Of a stretch of 64,000 nucleotides of DNA, positions 18,875 to 23,510 are shown piece by piece. Below the pieces are notes generated by a model that was not told the origin of the DNA, searched no databases, and worked only from the letters and a program-made list of their open reading frames with translations. The position numbers were made by a program, and so were the translations under genes. This DNA is from Dehalococcoides mccartyi (GTDB lineage Bacteria > Chloroflexota > Dehalococcoidia > UBA2979): contig CAMBFG010000004.1 in NCBI GenBank assembly GCA_945865925.1, positions 110,659 to 174,658 on the forward strand, in the 5' to 3' direction. How positions within the stretch are numbered: the first letter of the stretch is position 1; each line of letters starts with the position of its first letter.

Positions 18875-19222
18875 GGCGTCCTCCTGAGCCCTCGGGCATG
18901 CGATGTGGCCGCATCCTGCGGCCTGCGCGGAGGCGCGTCAACCTGGGCCGGACGAGCGACCACCGAGCGGCATCCAGATTCAATATGACACGTGAGAAGT
19001 GAAACAGACGTAGAAAATACATCCTGCCGACGTTCGAACTCCAACGGGCTGAAACAACGAGACGTCAGGCTCCGCGCCAAGCGGAAACAGATGTGGCCCG
19101 GATGTCCCCCTCGAGTGTCCCAGCGCGCTCGATGTCACCCCCACTCTCGTACTCCGCGACCACCAGGCACCCGGTAGCGGGTGCGCGGGCGTCGCATGTG
19201 CGACGTCAGGGAGGAGCCGTTG
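18875..19222. other. Intergenic region between the divergent MFS and TPR-amt genes
   Basis: About 350 bases with no credible gene. A relatively A+T-rich stretch at roughly 18970-19020 stands out against the GC-rich surroundings and is the likeliest promoter zone for either side, but I cannot place boxes with confidence. Confidence 0.4.
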
Positions 19223-19759
19223 ATGGCCCACCGAGTGGATGCGAGTGGCAGCGCGGCGTTACCGCGCTCGCCCGATCCGCCGCCGGCCGACGCCTGGAAG
19301 CGAGCACACCATTTGATGGTGATCGGTCAGGTCGCCGAGGCGATCCCGCTGATGGAGCGGGTCGTGGCGGAGTACCCGTCCTGGTCCGGCGCCCGGGCGA
19401 GCCTGGGTGTGGCCTACACACGGATGGGACGTATCCATGAGGCACAGGATCTGATCGATACGGCCCTGGCCGAGGCGCCCGAGGACTTCTCCTGCCGGGT
19501 GGCGAAGGCGGAGTACTTCGCACGCCTCGGGTTCTACGACAAGTCAGTGCCGCATCTGGACATCGCCCTGGAGGTCGCCCCAGGCGACGCCGAGTACCGG
19601 GCGGCGTTCGAGATGCGCCGGTTCTGTGTCGACAAGAGCAAGGGGCTGTTCTACCGGGAGACCGCGCTCCCCTGGCCACGCGGATGGCGTCCGTGGGCAC
19701 GGCGCAACCACACAGCTGAGCCCGCCTCTGTGGCGGTGCTGGAAAAGGACCTGCGATGA
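19223..19759 (+). CDS. TPR repeat protein coupled to the ammonium transporter gene
   Basis: A 178-residue soluble protein with about three tetratricopeptide-type helical hairpins between residues 25 and 125 (AWKRAHHLMVIGQVAEAIPL, ARASLGVAYTRMGRIHEAQD, CRVAKAEYFARLGFYDKS). The C-terminal 50 residues are basic and Trp/Pro-rich and may contact membrane or protein. The ATG at 19223 follows GGGAGGAG, preferred over the upstream frame at 19181. Its stop overlaps the amt start as ATGA, so the products are likely made in fixed ratio and may interact. Confidence 0.8.
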   Translation: MAHRVDASGSAALPRSPDPPPADAWKRAHHLMVIGQVAEAIPLMERVVAEYPSWSGARASLGVAYTRMGRIHEAQDLIDTALAEAPEDFSCRVAKAEYFARLGFYDKSVPHLDIALEVAPGDAEYRAAFEMRRFCVDKSKGLFYRETALPWPRGWRPWARRNHTAEPASVAVLEKDLR

Positions 19760-21927
19760 CTACGGCACTCTTCCTGATGCCGCTCCTGTTCACCATCCTG
19801 ACCGCGCTCTCGCGGGTCGTCGCTGTGCGTGGCGCGACCGTCGAGGGCAAGGTGCAACGGGAGTTCAGCCTCTCCTTCGGAGAGCGGCTGCGCTACCACC
19901 AGTTCTCGATCTACTCGCTCGGAACACTGCTGGTCCTGGGGGCGCTCTCCGGACTGATCCACCTCACCCTCGAACTCATCGCGATGACGGCGATGTACGT
20001 GGTGGTGAGCCGCCCGATCCGCTACCGGCTGACGAGCGCGGGCATCGCGGTGAACCGCGTCGTGTTCCGCCCGTGGTCCGAGTTCAGTGGCTACGAGGCG
20101 CGTCGTGGCAGCCTCCGGCTGGTCGGTGCGCCAGGTGCTGGCCGCTTCGATATCCGTGTGGCCATCGCGCGCTACGCGCCCGTGACAGCCGTGGTGTCGC
20201 GGTACCTGCCGGCCGTGACGACGACCTCTGCGGGGACGCCGCGCAAGTCGCTGTACTCGGCACTGATGCTGGTGCCAGTGTTCGCCGTCGTGGTGATGCT
20301 CGGCGTGGGCGCTCACACCGCCTTCGCGGACGGCCCGGACGACGAGCCGGCCATCGATGTGGCGGGCACCAAGGTCGGCACGCCGGAGGACCTGGCGGGC
20401 ATCGGTACTGGTGGTGGCAGCCTGGCTGTCCTGGACAAGGGCGGGGTCCTGGACCCGGACGCGACGGCGAAGATGTTCGCGGACGCGCAGACGAAGGAGC
20501 CGTTCGCCTACAACCTGGCGGCGTACGTCAACCAGAACCGCATCGCGATCAACTTCGTGTGGGTGCTGGTCTGTGGCTACCTCGTCATGTTCATGCAGGC
20601 CGGCTTCGCGATGGTCGAAACCGGATTCTGCCGTGCCAAGAGTGCGATGCAGGTCATGATGACGAACTTCATGGTCTACGGCGTCGGCATGCTGGCGTAC
20701 TGGGCCATCGGCTTCGCGATCCAGTTCGGCGGTGTCGGCCTGACCGGCCCGACGAACCTCGGCGCGGGACTGCTCGCGCTGAACAAGGAAGCCGGCATCA
20801 CGATCGGCGACACGAAGTGGGGCCTGTTCGGCTACAAGGGCTTCTTCCTGGGGCCGGACGTCCTGGACGTCGGTGTCGCGGTGCTGTTCCTCTTCCAGAT
20901 GGTGTTCATGGACACGGCAGCCACGATCCTGACGGGCGCCGTCGCTGAGCGCTGGCGCTGGGTGTCGTTCCTCATCTGGGGTGTCTTCATCGGTGGGTTC
21001 ATCTACCCGATGTTCGGCAACTGGGCGTGGGGCGGCGGCTGGCTCTTCCAGCTGAAGGATTCCGCCATCGGCAGGCCATACGTGGACTTCGCTGGTAGTG
21101 GCGTGGTGCACTCGGTCGGCGGGTGGTCCGCGTTTGCCGCGGCGTGGGTGCTGGGGCCGCGGCTGGGCAAGTACAACAAGGACGGCAGCGTCAACGCGAT
21201 GCCGGGCCACAACATCAACATGGCAGCGATCGGGACGTTCATCCTGGCGTTCGGGTGGTTCGGGTTCAACCCGGGCTCCACGCTGGGCGCGTCCGGCAGC
21301 GGCAACCTGCGCATCGGTGAAATCGCGGTGGTGACCATGCTGGCGGGCGCCGCCGGCTCCGTGACCGCGATGGCGTTCGCACGCATGACGCTGGGCAAGT
21401 ACGACCCTGGCTACATGATCAACGGCATCCTGGCCGGCCTGGTGGCTATCACCGCGCCGTCCGGGTATGTCAGCCCGATCCTGGCTGTCCTCATCGGCGG
21501 CATGGCGGGTGTGCTCACCTGCTGGGCGATGGGCTTCATCGAGCGGGTCGTGAAGGTAGATGACCCGGTGGGCGCCATTGCGGTCCACGGGGTGAGCGGC
21601 ATCTTCGGCGTGATCTGCGTCGGATTGTTTGCTGATGGGACGGCGCCAGACTTCCTCGTCGTGGGGTACCCGATCAAGGGACTCTTCTTCGGGGACGGAG
21701 CGCAGTTGGTGGCGCAACTCGTAGGCGCCGCGACGGCCATCATCTGGTCGTTCGGCACCTCGTTCATCCTGTTCACCGTCCTGAAGGCGATGGGGCTCTT
21801 CCGGATCTCGCCCGAGGACGAGATGACCGGCATCGACATTCCAGAGATGGGTACACACGCGTACCCACCGCAGGAAATCCCGGGCTACGGCACGGCGATG
21901 ACGGGCGAGTTCGTCCCGGCTCGGTAG
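19756..21927 (+). CDS. amt: Ammonium transporter (Amt) with an extra N-terminal membrane/PH-like module
   Basis: A 723-residue frame. From about residue 260 it is a complete Amt channel: NFVWVLVCGYLVMFMQAGFAMVETG, the pore His of the twin-His pair in SGVVHSVGG (about 451) and in AVHGVSG (about 609), and DFAGSG just before the first His. Residues 1-160 are not part of Amt: one hydrophobic N-terminal helix, a helix pair at about 52-85, then a domain (YRLTSAGIAVNRVVFRPWSEF) resembling bacterial PH/DUF5673 domains. Residues 165-191 look like the usual Amt signal peptide with an AFA cleavage site, now internal. The TPR gene is coupled upstream; no P-II gene is adjacent. Confidence 0.92.
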   Translation: MTTALFLMPLLFTILTALSRVVAVRGATVEGKVQREFSLSFGERLRYHQFSIYSLGTLLVLGALSGLIHLTLELIAMTAMYVVVSRPIRYRLTSAGIAVNRVVFRPWSEFSGYEARRGSLRLVGAPGAGRFDIRVAIARYAPVTAVVSRYLPAVTTTSAGTPRKSLYSALMLVPVFAVVVMLGVGAHTAFADGPDDEPAIDVAGTKVGTPEDLAGIGTGGGSLAVLDKGGVLDPDATAKMFADAQTKEPFAYNLAAYVNQNRIAINFVWVLVCGYLVMFMQAGFAMVETGFCRAKSAMQVMMTNFMVYGVGMLAYWAIGFAIQFGGVGLTGPTNLGAGLLALNKEAGITIGDTKWGLFGYKGFFLGPDVLDVGVAVLFLFQMVFMDTAATILTGAVAERWRWVSFLIWGVFIGGFIYPMFGNWAWGGGWLFQLKDSAIGRPYVDFAGSGVVHSVGGWSAFAAAWVLGPRLGKYNKDGSVNAMPGHNINMAAIGTFILAFGWFGFNPGSTLGASGSGNLRIGEIAVVTMLAGAAGSVTAMAFARMTLGKYDPGYMINGILAGLVAITAPSGYVSPILAVLIGGMAGVLTCWAMGFIERVVKVDDPVGAIAVHGVSGIFGVICVGLFADGTAPDFLVVGYPIKGLFFGDGAQLVAQLVGAATAIIWSFGTSFILFTVLKAMGLFRISPEDEMTGIDIPEMGTHAYPPQEIPGYGTAMTGEFVPAR

Positions 21928-22295: not shown

Positions 22296-23510
22296 GTGGA
22301 ATCCTCTGCTGAACTCCTGATCAGCCTGGCGCTGATTCTGCTGGCGGCACGGATCACCTCCTCGATTGCCACCTCCCTCGGCTTGCCCAGCGTCTTCGGC
22401 GTGCTGGTCGCTGGCGTCCTGCTCGGCCCCAGCGTGACCGGCCTGGTCCACCTCTCCCCTGCCCTCGAGGGCATGTCCAGCATTGGCGTCGTCCTCCTGC
22501 TGTTCGTCGCGGGGATCGAGACCGACCTCGTGGAAATGCGCCGAGTCGGTACCGCCGCCACCCTGGCTGCCGTGGGCGGCGTGGCCTTGCCAATGGCGGG
22601 GGCCGCAGGCCTCGCTATCGCCTTCGGGTACGACACCTCCGAGGCCGTGTTCATCGGCACGATCATGACTGCCACGAGCGTGACCGTCTCCGCGCATGTG
22701 CTGAAAGAGGCCGGGTTCCTCCAGAGCCGGATCGGGAGTGCCATCCTCGGCGCTGCGGTGATCGACGACATCATCGGTGTCGTTGTCCTGACTGTGGTCG
22801 TGAGCATCGAAGGTGGCGGGGGGATCTTCGACCTCGTCCGGCTGGCGATGTTCATACCCATCGCGCTCCTGGCCGGGCATTTCATTACGAGAGTTGCTGC
22901 GGTCCGTCTGGTGCTGATGGAGACGCGCGAGCACAAGTTCCTCGAAGTGCTGGCGCTGGTGCTCGCATTCGCGTGGGCAGCACAGGAGATCGGCGGGCTC
23001 GCAGCGATCTCGGGGGCGTACCTGGCGGGGGTGCTCTTCGGCCGGACGATCCTGCAGGAAGACCTGGCCGACTTCGGCAACCTCATCGGCTATGCGCTCT
23101 TCGCGCCGATCTTTTTCGTCACGACCGGCATGTCCGCAGACCTCGGGGGCCTCGGGGCGGTCCCACTCTTCGCGACACTGCTGCTGGTCGTCGCGGTCGT
23201 CACGAAGGTCATCGGCTGCTATGGGGGCGCACGGCTGGGCCGCTTCAGCCACTCGGAGTCGATGGCCGTCGGTACAGGGATGATCGCGCGCGGCGAGGTC
23301 GCCCTTGTGATTGCGGTGATCGGCCACCAGTCGGGGGTAATCGGCGACGACACGTACACCGCCAGCATCGTGGTGACGCTGTTGACGACCCTCGCAGCCC
23401 CGCTGTTGCTCCGCGTGACGCTGCCGAGGCAGGCGCCTCCCCCGGAGACCGACGCTGAGTCCGAGCACCGCCTCGAACTCGCTACGCAGATCGATCAACT
23501 CGAGGGCTAG
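22296..23510 (+). CDS. CPA2-family cation/proton antiporter
   Basis: A 404-residue membrane protein, GTG start, with about 12 hydrophobic segments and no C-terminal TrkA domain. Signatures of the Kef/NapA-type exchanger family are FGVLVAGVLLGPS, GIETDLVEMRR, the double acidic motif in GAAVIDDIIGVVVL (the ion-binding Asp pair) and GMIARGEVALVIA near the C terminus. Predicted to exchange Na+ or K+ for protons across the cytoplasmic membrane. It is convergent with the following acyl-CoA dehydrogenase gene, 26 bases apart. Confidence 0.9.
   Translation: MESSAELLISLALILLAARITSSIATSLGLPSVFGVLVAGVLLGPSVTGLVHLSPALEGMSSIGVVLLLFVAGIETDLVEMRRVGTAATLAAVGGVALPMAGAAGLAIAFGYDTSEAVFIGTIMTATSVTVSAHVLKEAGFLQSRIGSAILGAAVIDDIIGVVVLTVVVSIEGGGGIFDLVRLAMFIPIALLAGHFITRVAAVRLVLMETREHKFLEVLALVLAFAWAAQEIGGLAAISGAYLAGVLFGRTILQEDLADFGNLIGYALFAPIFFVTTGMSADLGGLGAVPLFATLLLVVAVVTKVIGCYGGARLGRFSHSESMAVGTGMIARGEVALVIAVIGHQSGVIGDDTYTASIVVTLLTTLAAPLLLRVTLPRQAPPPETDAESEHRLELATQIDQLEG

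Follow-up and report, generated by a model that had tools for sequence, protein, structure and literature searches.

In Chloroflexota, a gene for a TPR-repeat protein, a PH-like membrane module and an ammonium transporter (Amt) gene are predicted, from the comparison of genomes, to form a conserved operon. In the window (the whole stretch of 64,000 nucleotides that was analysed) the module and the transporter are joined in a single reading frame, and the arrangement points to a dedicated Amt accessory system without dependence on the usual P-II regulator. What is understood of Amt control in bacteria comes largely from GlnK/P-II. An operon conserved with a different partner pair, mostly in genomes lacking P-II, would open a second system of control or assembly to investigation; its recurrent gene fusions directly name the partner pair, and an Amt partner family outside the Pfam and NCBIfam models marks an annotation gap. 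We searched the literature, covering few of the subscription papers, and found no published description of this operon or fusion.

The locus and the fused protein

The features of the locus are collected in Table 1. Reading of the open frame from 19756 to 21927 revealed no internal stop. The ATGA at 19756-19759 provides both the stop of the TPR gene and the start of the fused ORF, and by this overlap the two are translationally coupled. The TPR protein is matched over the Pfam cut-off by TPR_14 in three stretches, by TPR_2 in three and by TPR_19 in two. The fused frame is 88% identical across its full length to that of its relative L003, with synonymous-biased change in both the module and the Amt; it is therefore not a chance frame. 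Within the module, the differences between the window and L003 number 31/17/54 by codon position, a third-position excess that speaks for translation of the module. Conservation is lowest in the linker (61% identity in the same comparison), where no clear codon-position bias of this kind is seen.

Table 1. Features of the TPR–module–amt locus; positions are those of the window, residues those of the fused protein.
Feature	Position	Strand	Basis or remark
Shine-Dalgarno-like GGAGGAG of the TPR gene	19210..19216	+	sequence
TPR-repeat protein gene, 178 aa	19223..19759	+	several TPR matches
Shine-Dalgarno-like AAGGA, within the TPR gene, 6 bases 5′ of the fused ORF start	19745..19749	+	
Fused ORF, PH-like membrane module and Amt, 723 aa	19756..21927	+	
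Module TM1, aa 2-21, probably N-out	19759..19818	+	AlphaFold2 model; topology inferred
PH-like domain strand 1, aa 33-38	19852..19869	+	AlphaFold2 model
TM2-TM3 hairpin, aa 49-84, between strands 1 and 2	19900..20007	+	AlphaFold2 model
Remaining PH-like strands and C-terminal helix, aa 89-150	20020..20205	+	AlphaFold2 model, alignment
Junction signal-peptide-like helix, aa 166-191, predicted cleavage AFA↓DG	20251..20328	+	alignment, full-length model, rule-based scan
Predicted extracytoplasmic tail of mature Amt, aa 192-265, mostly low model confidence	20329..20550	+	
Amt domain, aa 266-703; H452/H611 His pair, Phe-gate F384, D444, S508	20551..21864	+	
CPA-type cation/proton exchanger gene (PF00999), 3′ of the fused ORF	22296..23510	+	recurrent operon neighbour

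The C-terminal part of the fused protein is a predicted ammonium transporter and, judged by its profile matches, a complete member of the Amt family. PF00909 aligns with residues 268-703 over the whole of its model (1-399 of 399; 368 bits), TIGR00836 scores 375 bits against a cut-off of 343, and the chain ends about 20 residues past the Amt domain. His-452, His-611, Phe-384 and the selectivity-filter residue Ser-508 are invariant across 14 aligned relatives.

The module comprises about 150 residues and lies N-terminal to the Amt; residues 1 to ~160 of the fused protein have no Pfam or NCBIfam match. It was modelled with AlphaFold2 from 14 sequences (pLDDT 87, pTM 0.74). The model has a helix (2-21), a strand (33-38), two helices (49-65 and 70-84), strands between 89 and 134 and a closing helix (137-150). 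The predicted fold is PH-like, with seven strands of at least three residues in addition to helix 137-150, most of it at pLDDT about 90. Strand 1 comes before the hairpin and the other strands after it, so that in the model the first loop of the PH-like domain contains the transmembrane hairpin. The conserved motifs YxxT..G and RxW..F sit in the part comprising residues 89-150. A Foldseek search with the module model returned weak matches (best E 0.006, none below 0.001). On re-alignment, the top structural matches were the PH domains of Pob3/SSRP1, neurobeachin, kindlin and dynamin, with Z 7.7-9.4 over ~80 residues (78-83) within residues 31-156 and rmsd 2.2-2.7. The original prediction that a complete Amt carries an additional membrane/PH-like module at its N terminus is thus borne out by the full-length PF00909 match and the AlphaFold2 fold. 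Its PH-like guess agrees with the predicted fold and the PH-superfamily matches; its DUF5673 label has no Pfam or NCBIfam match behind it.

No Pfam bacterial PH family scored over its cut-off in any of the 14 modules, the best being bPH_7 at E 8.9. We take YcxB (PF14317) to be the nearest known architecture. Aligned with YcxB by hhalign over the PH part, the module gave P 1.5e-4 and a probability of 52%, a weak profile similarity; with no PF14317 match over the cut-off either, membership of the YcxB family was rejected. Transmembrane helices occur in known bacterial PH families (PHb, PMC2817789), and it has been suggested that PH domains in bacteria form the end pieces of complexes associated with membranes (PMC2817789). 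The module shares with PHb and YcxB a transmembrane hairpin and a cytoplasmic PH-like fold; it differs from them in being unrecognised by the Pfam models, in its extra TM1 and in its attachment to an Amt. We note that many Chloroflexota have a stand-alone paralogue of the module, which mostly adjoins yebC, ruvC/ruvA/ruvB or the gene of a RarA-like ATPase (genes named from their sequence by eye). No transporter lies near these paralogue loci (L116-L129, L133 and L134, for example L117:5975-6472). The paralogue is an uncatalogued family of PH-like membrane proteins.

Conservation, fusion and P-II context

Relatives were found by searching genome contigs with the fused protein, and the best 80 loci were examined. 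Among these the module occurs only in Chloroflexota. It is fused in frame to the Amt in L003, L004, L005, L007, L009, L010, L011 and L013, and forms a separate ORF directly upstream of amt in L006, L008, L012, L015 and L058. A TPR gene precedes the module, often overlapping it, in all 13 of these module-bearing relatives; together with the ATGA this upholds the originally noted overlap of a TPR gene with the start of the fused ORF. Most of the genomes examined are metagenome bins; L007 is an isolate. Across the phylum, 50 of 400 Chloroflexota genomes (25 of 225 genera) have a module-like match, as do 11 of 393 genomes of the window's class. The strong matches show the order TPR–module–amt, in G038 with a weak TPR match. 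G377 has a weaker module before amt and no TPR gene; the other weaker matches in the phylum search are the stand-alone paralogue. An Amt-linked module is found in about 23 genomes, an approximate number because the two collections seem to share some organisms, and the TPR gene is present in all but one of them and weak in one more. In L005, L006, L010, L012 and L058 the TPR protein begins with a zinc-ribbon-like CxxC...CxxC, which is absent in the window's genus. The module-linked amt of G305 lies in two frames (L155/L156, G305:C129:27696-28992), either a real frameshift or an assembly error.

The fused state occurs in three groups, namely Dehalococcoidia relatives, Ktedonobacteria and one Anaerolineae bin; elsewhere the module is a separate gene just upstream of amt. 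The fusion of the original prediction is thus real in three groups, while many relatives have separate module and amt genes with an intact stop. This separation argues for a module that began as an Amt partner and became fused, and against an intrinsic Amt domain. In an Amt tree of 42 rows, built by a quick method with no bootstrap, the module-associated Amts form one Chloroflexota clade (support 99), which includes L014, a contig-truncated Amt whose N terminus is not visible. L131 falls just outside the clade, and the placement of L130, on a long branch, is uncertain. The fused state maps to three changes on this tree, at least two of them forced by well-supported branches: the window group (window, L003, L162, L004 and L005) has support 100 and falls within split relatives (99), the fused Ktedonobacteria form a group apart (100), and L010 is on its own. 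The remaining Chloroflexota Amts read fall into different Amt groups, and neither partner was seen in those of their flanks that were read. That the two genes were fused more than once speaks for a functional link between the module and the Amt. A constant gene order, coupling through the ATGA and repeated fusion together mark the module as an apparent partner of this Amt and, on less direct grounds, the TPR protein as well.

In the window no P-II gene is adjacent to the fused amt. The only P-II found in the genome adjoins a second, quite different Amt (C4:191190-192737) on the same contig and outside the window; this canonical amt/P-II pair lies ~60 kb downstream of the fused locus. Pfam searches matched P-II in 4 of 14 genomes with an Amt-linked module and gave no match in the other ten. 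P-II directly follows the module-linked amt in G066, G305 and G029 (Pfam searches; by eye in L012), and the original observation that no P-II gene is adjacent therefore holds for the window but not as a property of the system. Replacement of P-II by the module system was considered and rejected. Among the 400 Chloroflexota genomes P-II is matched in 166 and unmatched in 234 (Amt is found in 297); its absence is common in the phylum and alone is thus no evidence of replacement, and three module-Amt genomes carry it after amt. P-II is neither generally replaced nor required by the module-Amt system.

A candidate accessory complex and its alternatives

The junction between module and transporter (residues 166-191) has an n-region of net charge +2 and a hydrophobic core and ends HTAFA↓DGP, as expected from the original claim that the Amt keeps its own internal signal-peptide-like segment with an AFA site. 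An AxA or a lipobox was seen by eye at the junction in 9 of 9 aligned fused proteins, and a crude rule-based scan placed a cleavage site there in 8. Both inspection by eye and this rule were used to judge signal peptides; the lipobox regular expression alone also matches elsewhere in the same proteins, so position and hydropathy were used. In the full-length model confidence is low for the junction helix (166-188) and the tail (189-233). That the fused proteins have kept an AxA or a lipobox here points to cleavage of the precursor, most likely by signal peptidase at AFA↓D; a cut there would give the same final parts in fused and split lineages. The split amt genes mostly carry a signal peptide; those of L012 and L015 have no clear cleavage site, and processing seems, from these sequences, not to be universal.

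We lean towards a reading in which the TPR protein and the module make up an accessory complex on the cytoplasmic face of the Amt, the fusion probably being cleaved. We infer the topology, the cleavage, the physical contact and the regulatory role. The module would be anchored in the membrane by TM1 and by the hairpin within the PH-like fold; from the model and the charge distribution TM1 would be N-out and would be followed by the hairpin, with the PH-like domain in the cytoplasm. The next helix would be the Amt's own signal peptide, running from inside to outside and placing the Amt N terminus outward. Such a signal peptide is consistent with an outward Amt N terminus, and the topology originally proposed is workable on both the AlphaFold2 model and the charge distribution. 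Signal peptidase would then release free module and mature Amt in a 1:1 ratio. At the cytoplasmic face of the trimeric Amt, in a position like that of GlnK, the PH-like domain would be found together with the soluble TPR protein, and both may control Amt activity or assembly; the built-in or partner-based sensing originally suggested is a conjecture. Several points count against an accessory complex: it is uncommon for a folded membrane domain to be followed by an internal signal peptide, the two split amts lack a clear cleavage site, the paralogue beside yebC/ruv has no transporter nearby and thus the module need not act on an Amt, G377 dispenses with the TPR gene, and the Foldseek matches are weak. 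More tentatively, and at well under an even chance, the operon may serve P-II-independent control of ammonium uptake, in which the TPR protein acts on a special Amt subfamily by way of a PH-like subunit in the membrane, with a self-splitting polyprotein in some lineages; the cutter, as part of this joint reading, could be either signal peptidase or lipoprotein signal peptidase.

Two alternatives concern the junction itself. The Amt might be translated from an internal start, the module frame being merely stop-free; the window does have an in-frame ATG at codon 171, directly before the hydrophobic core. No Shine-Dalgarno sequence accompanies codon 171, the junction frame is open in about ten genomes of three groups including the isolate L007, and the module has synonymous bias, which together make a mis-called start most improbable. 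The split amt genes have their own Shine-Dalgarno sequence (AAGGAGG, AAGGAG or AGGAG; at least five bases in 5 of 6, only AAGG in L015). Before the in-frame starts between module and Amt none of at least four bases was found in the window, L003, L004, L005 or L010, and L007, L009, L011 and L013 have a few short Shine-Dalgarno-like runs of four or five bases. An internal Amt start was thus rejected for want of a ribosome site in the window and its nearest relatives. The fusion could also remain uncut, giving a transporter whose built-in cytoplasmic PH-like regulatory domain gates the pore through TPR binding or a lipid/metabolite. In several lineages the frame is open throughout and lacks an internal ribosome site, which fits this, as does the compact domain before the junction helix in the predicted fold; we consider it unlikely in view of the cleavable-looking signal peptide or lipobox kept at the junction and of the split relatives, where no covalent link exists.

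Other alternatives concern function. Ks-Amt5 is an ammonium sensor in which an Amt is fused to a histidine kinase (PMC5764959), and its high-affinity ammonium site comprises Gln-24, Glu-31, Asn-47, Asp-50, Thr-51, Thr-109 and Thr-112 (PMC5764959). The solved sequences closest to the window Amt are 6eu6 (279 bits), which agrees with the Ks-Amt5 residue numbering in PMC5764959, and 8qj3/8qpf (225 bits), not AmtB (105 bits). Five of the seven ligands are kept (Gln-281, Glu-288, Asn-304, Thr-390 and Thr-393) and are invariant in 14 relatives. On these grounds the protein could be a sensor rather than a transporter, signalling ammonium inward through its PH-like and TPR parts. However, Asp-50 and Thr-51 are replaced by Val-307 and Tyr-308 and the pore-blocking Tyr-30 by Val-287, and the extra part is N-terminal where Ks-Amt5 has a C-terminal output domain, with no kinase or cyclase linked; we regard a sensor as quite unlikely. 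Identity as a Ks-Amt5-type sensor was rejected, the site being incomplete and the C-terminal signalling output domain absent. Although five ligands are kept, loss of the acidic Asp-50 and of Thr-51 suggests that the tie to Ks-Amt5 is a matter of Amt subfamily. A doubtful but possible alternative is that the TPR protein and module serve biogenesis only, aiding insertion or assembly of an Amt subfamily whose extracytoplasmic N-terminal tail is long, with no part in regulation. A TPR protein and a membrane-anchored scaffold suit a chaperone role, the pair goes with one Amt subfamily only and the other Chloroflexota Amts read do without it, and the module occurs elsewhere without an Amt. Against biogenesis alone, close Amt relatives with similar tails in Myxococcota, Acidobacteriota and Armatimonadota have no fused module.

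Known systems and neighbouring genes

The accessory complex that we favour resembles AmtB–GlnK in the Amt fold, the His pair, the Phe gate and other pore residues, and in having a small partner gene beside amt. It differs in that its partners, instead of P-II, are the TPR protein and the membrane module with the PH-like fold, and in that most module-Amt genomes lack P-II while three have it directly after amt. Production of two membrane proteins as one chain has a precedent in Bradyrhizobium FbcH (cytochrome b/c1), where signal peptidase cuts an internal signal peptide; the proteins are unrelated, and in module-Amt the cleavage is only predicted. Ks-Amt5 (PMC5764959; 6eu6) likewise joins an Amt to a fused extra domain with no adjacent GlnK gene, and the window Amt is closer to it in sequence than to AmtB. 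In the window protein, however, the extra part is N-terminal and PH-like with its own membrane helices, followed by the signal-peptide-like helix, and the sensor-site Asp-50 is missing.

In Thermogemmatispora the gene after the fused Amt (L007:8466-13175 and L011:6184-10893) resembles, by eye, the large subunit of glutamate synthase. A PF00999 exchanger, as found in the window, also lies near the operon in L003 (6135-7352), L004 (8483-9742), L005 (9391-10596), L006 (8337-9533) and L058 (8336-9532), at L131 (2822-4027) and, there upstream, in L015 (23-1126). This exchanger is possibly part of ammonium or pH handling.
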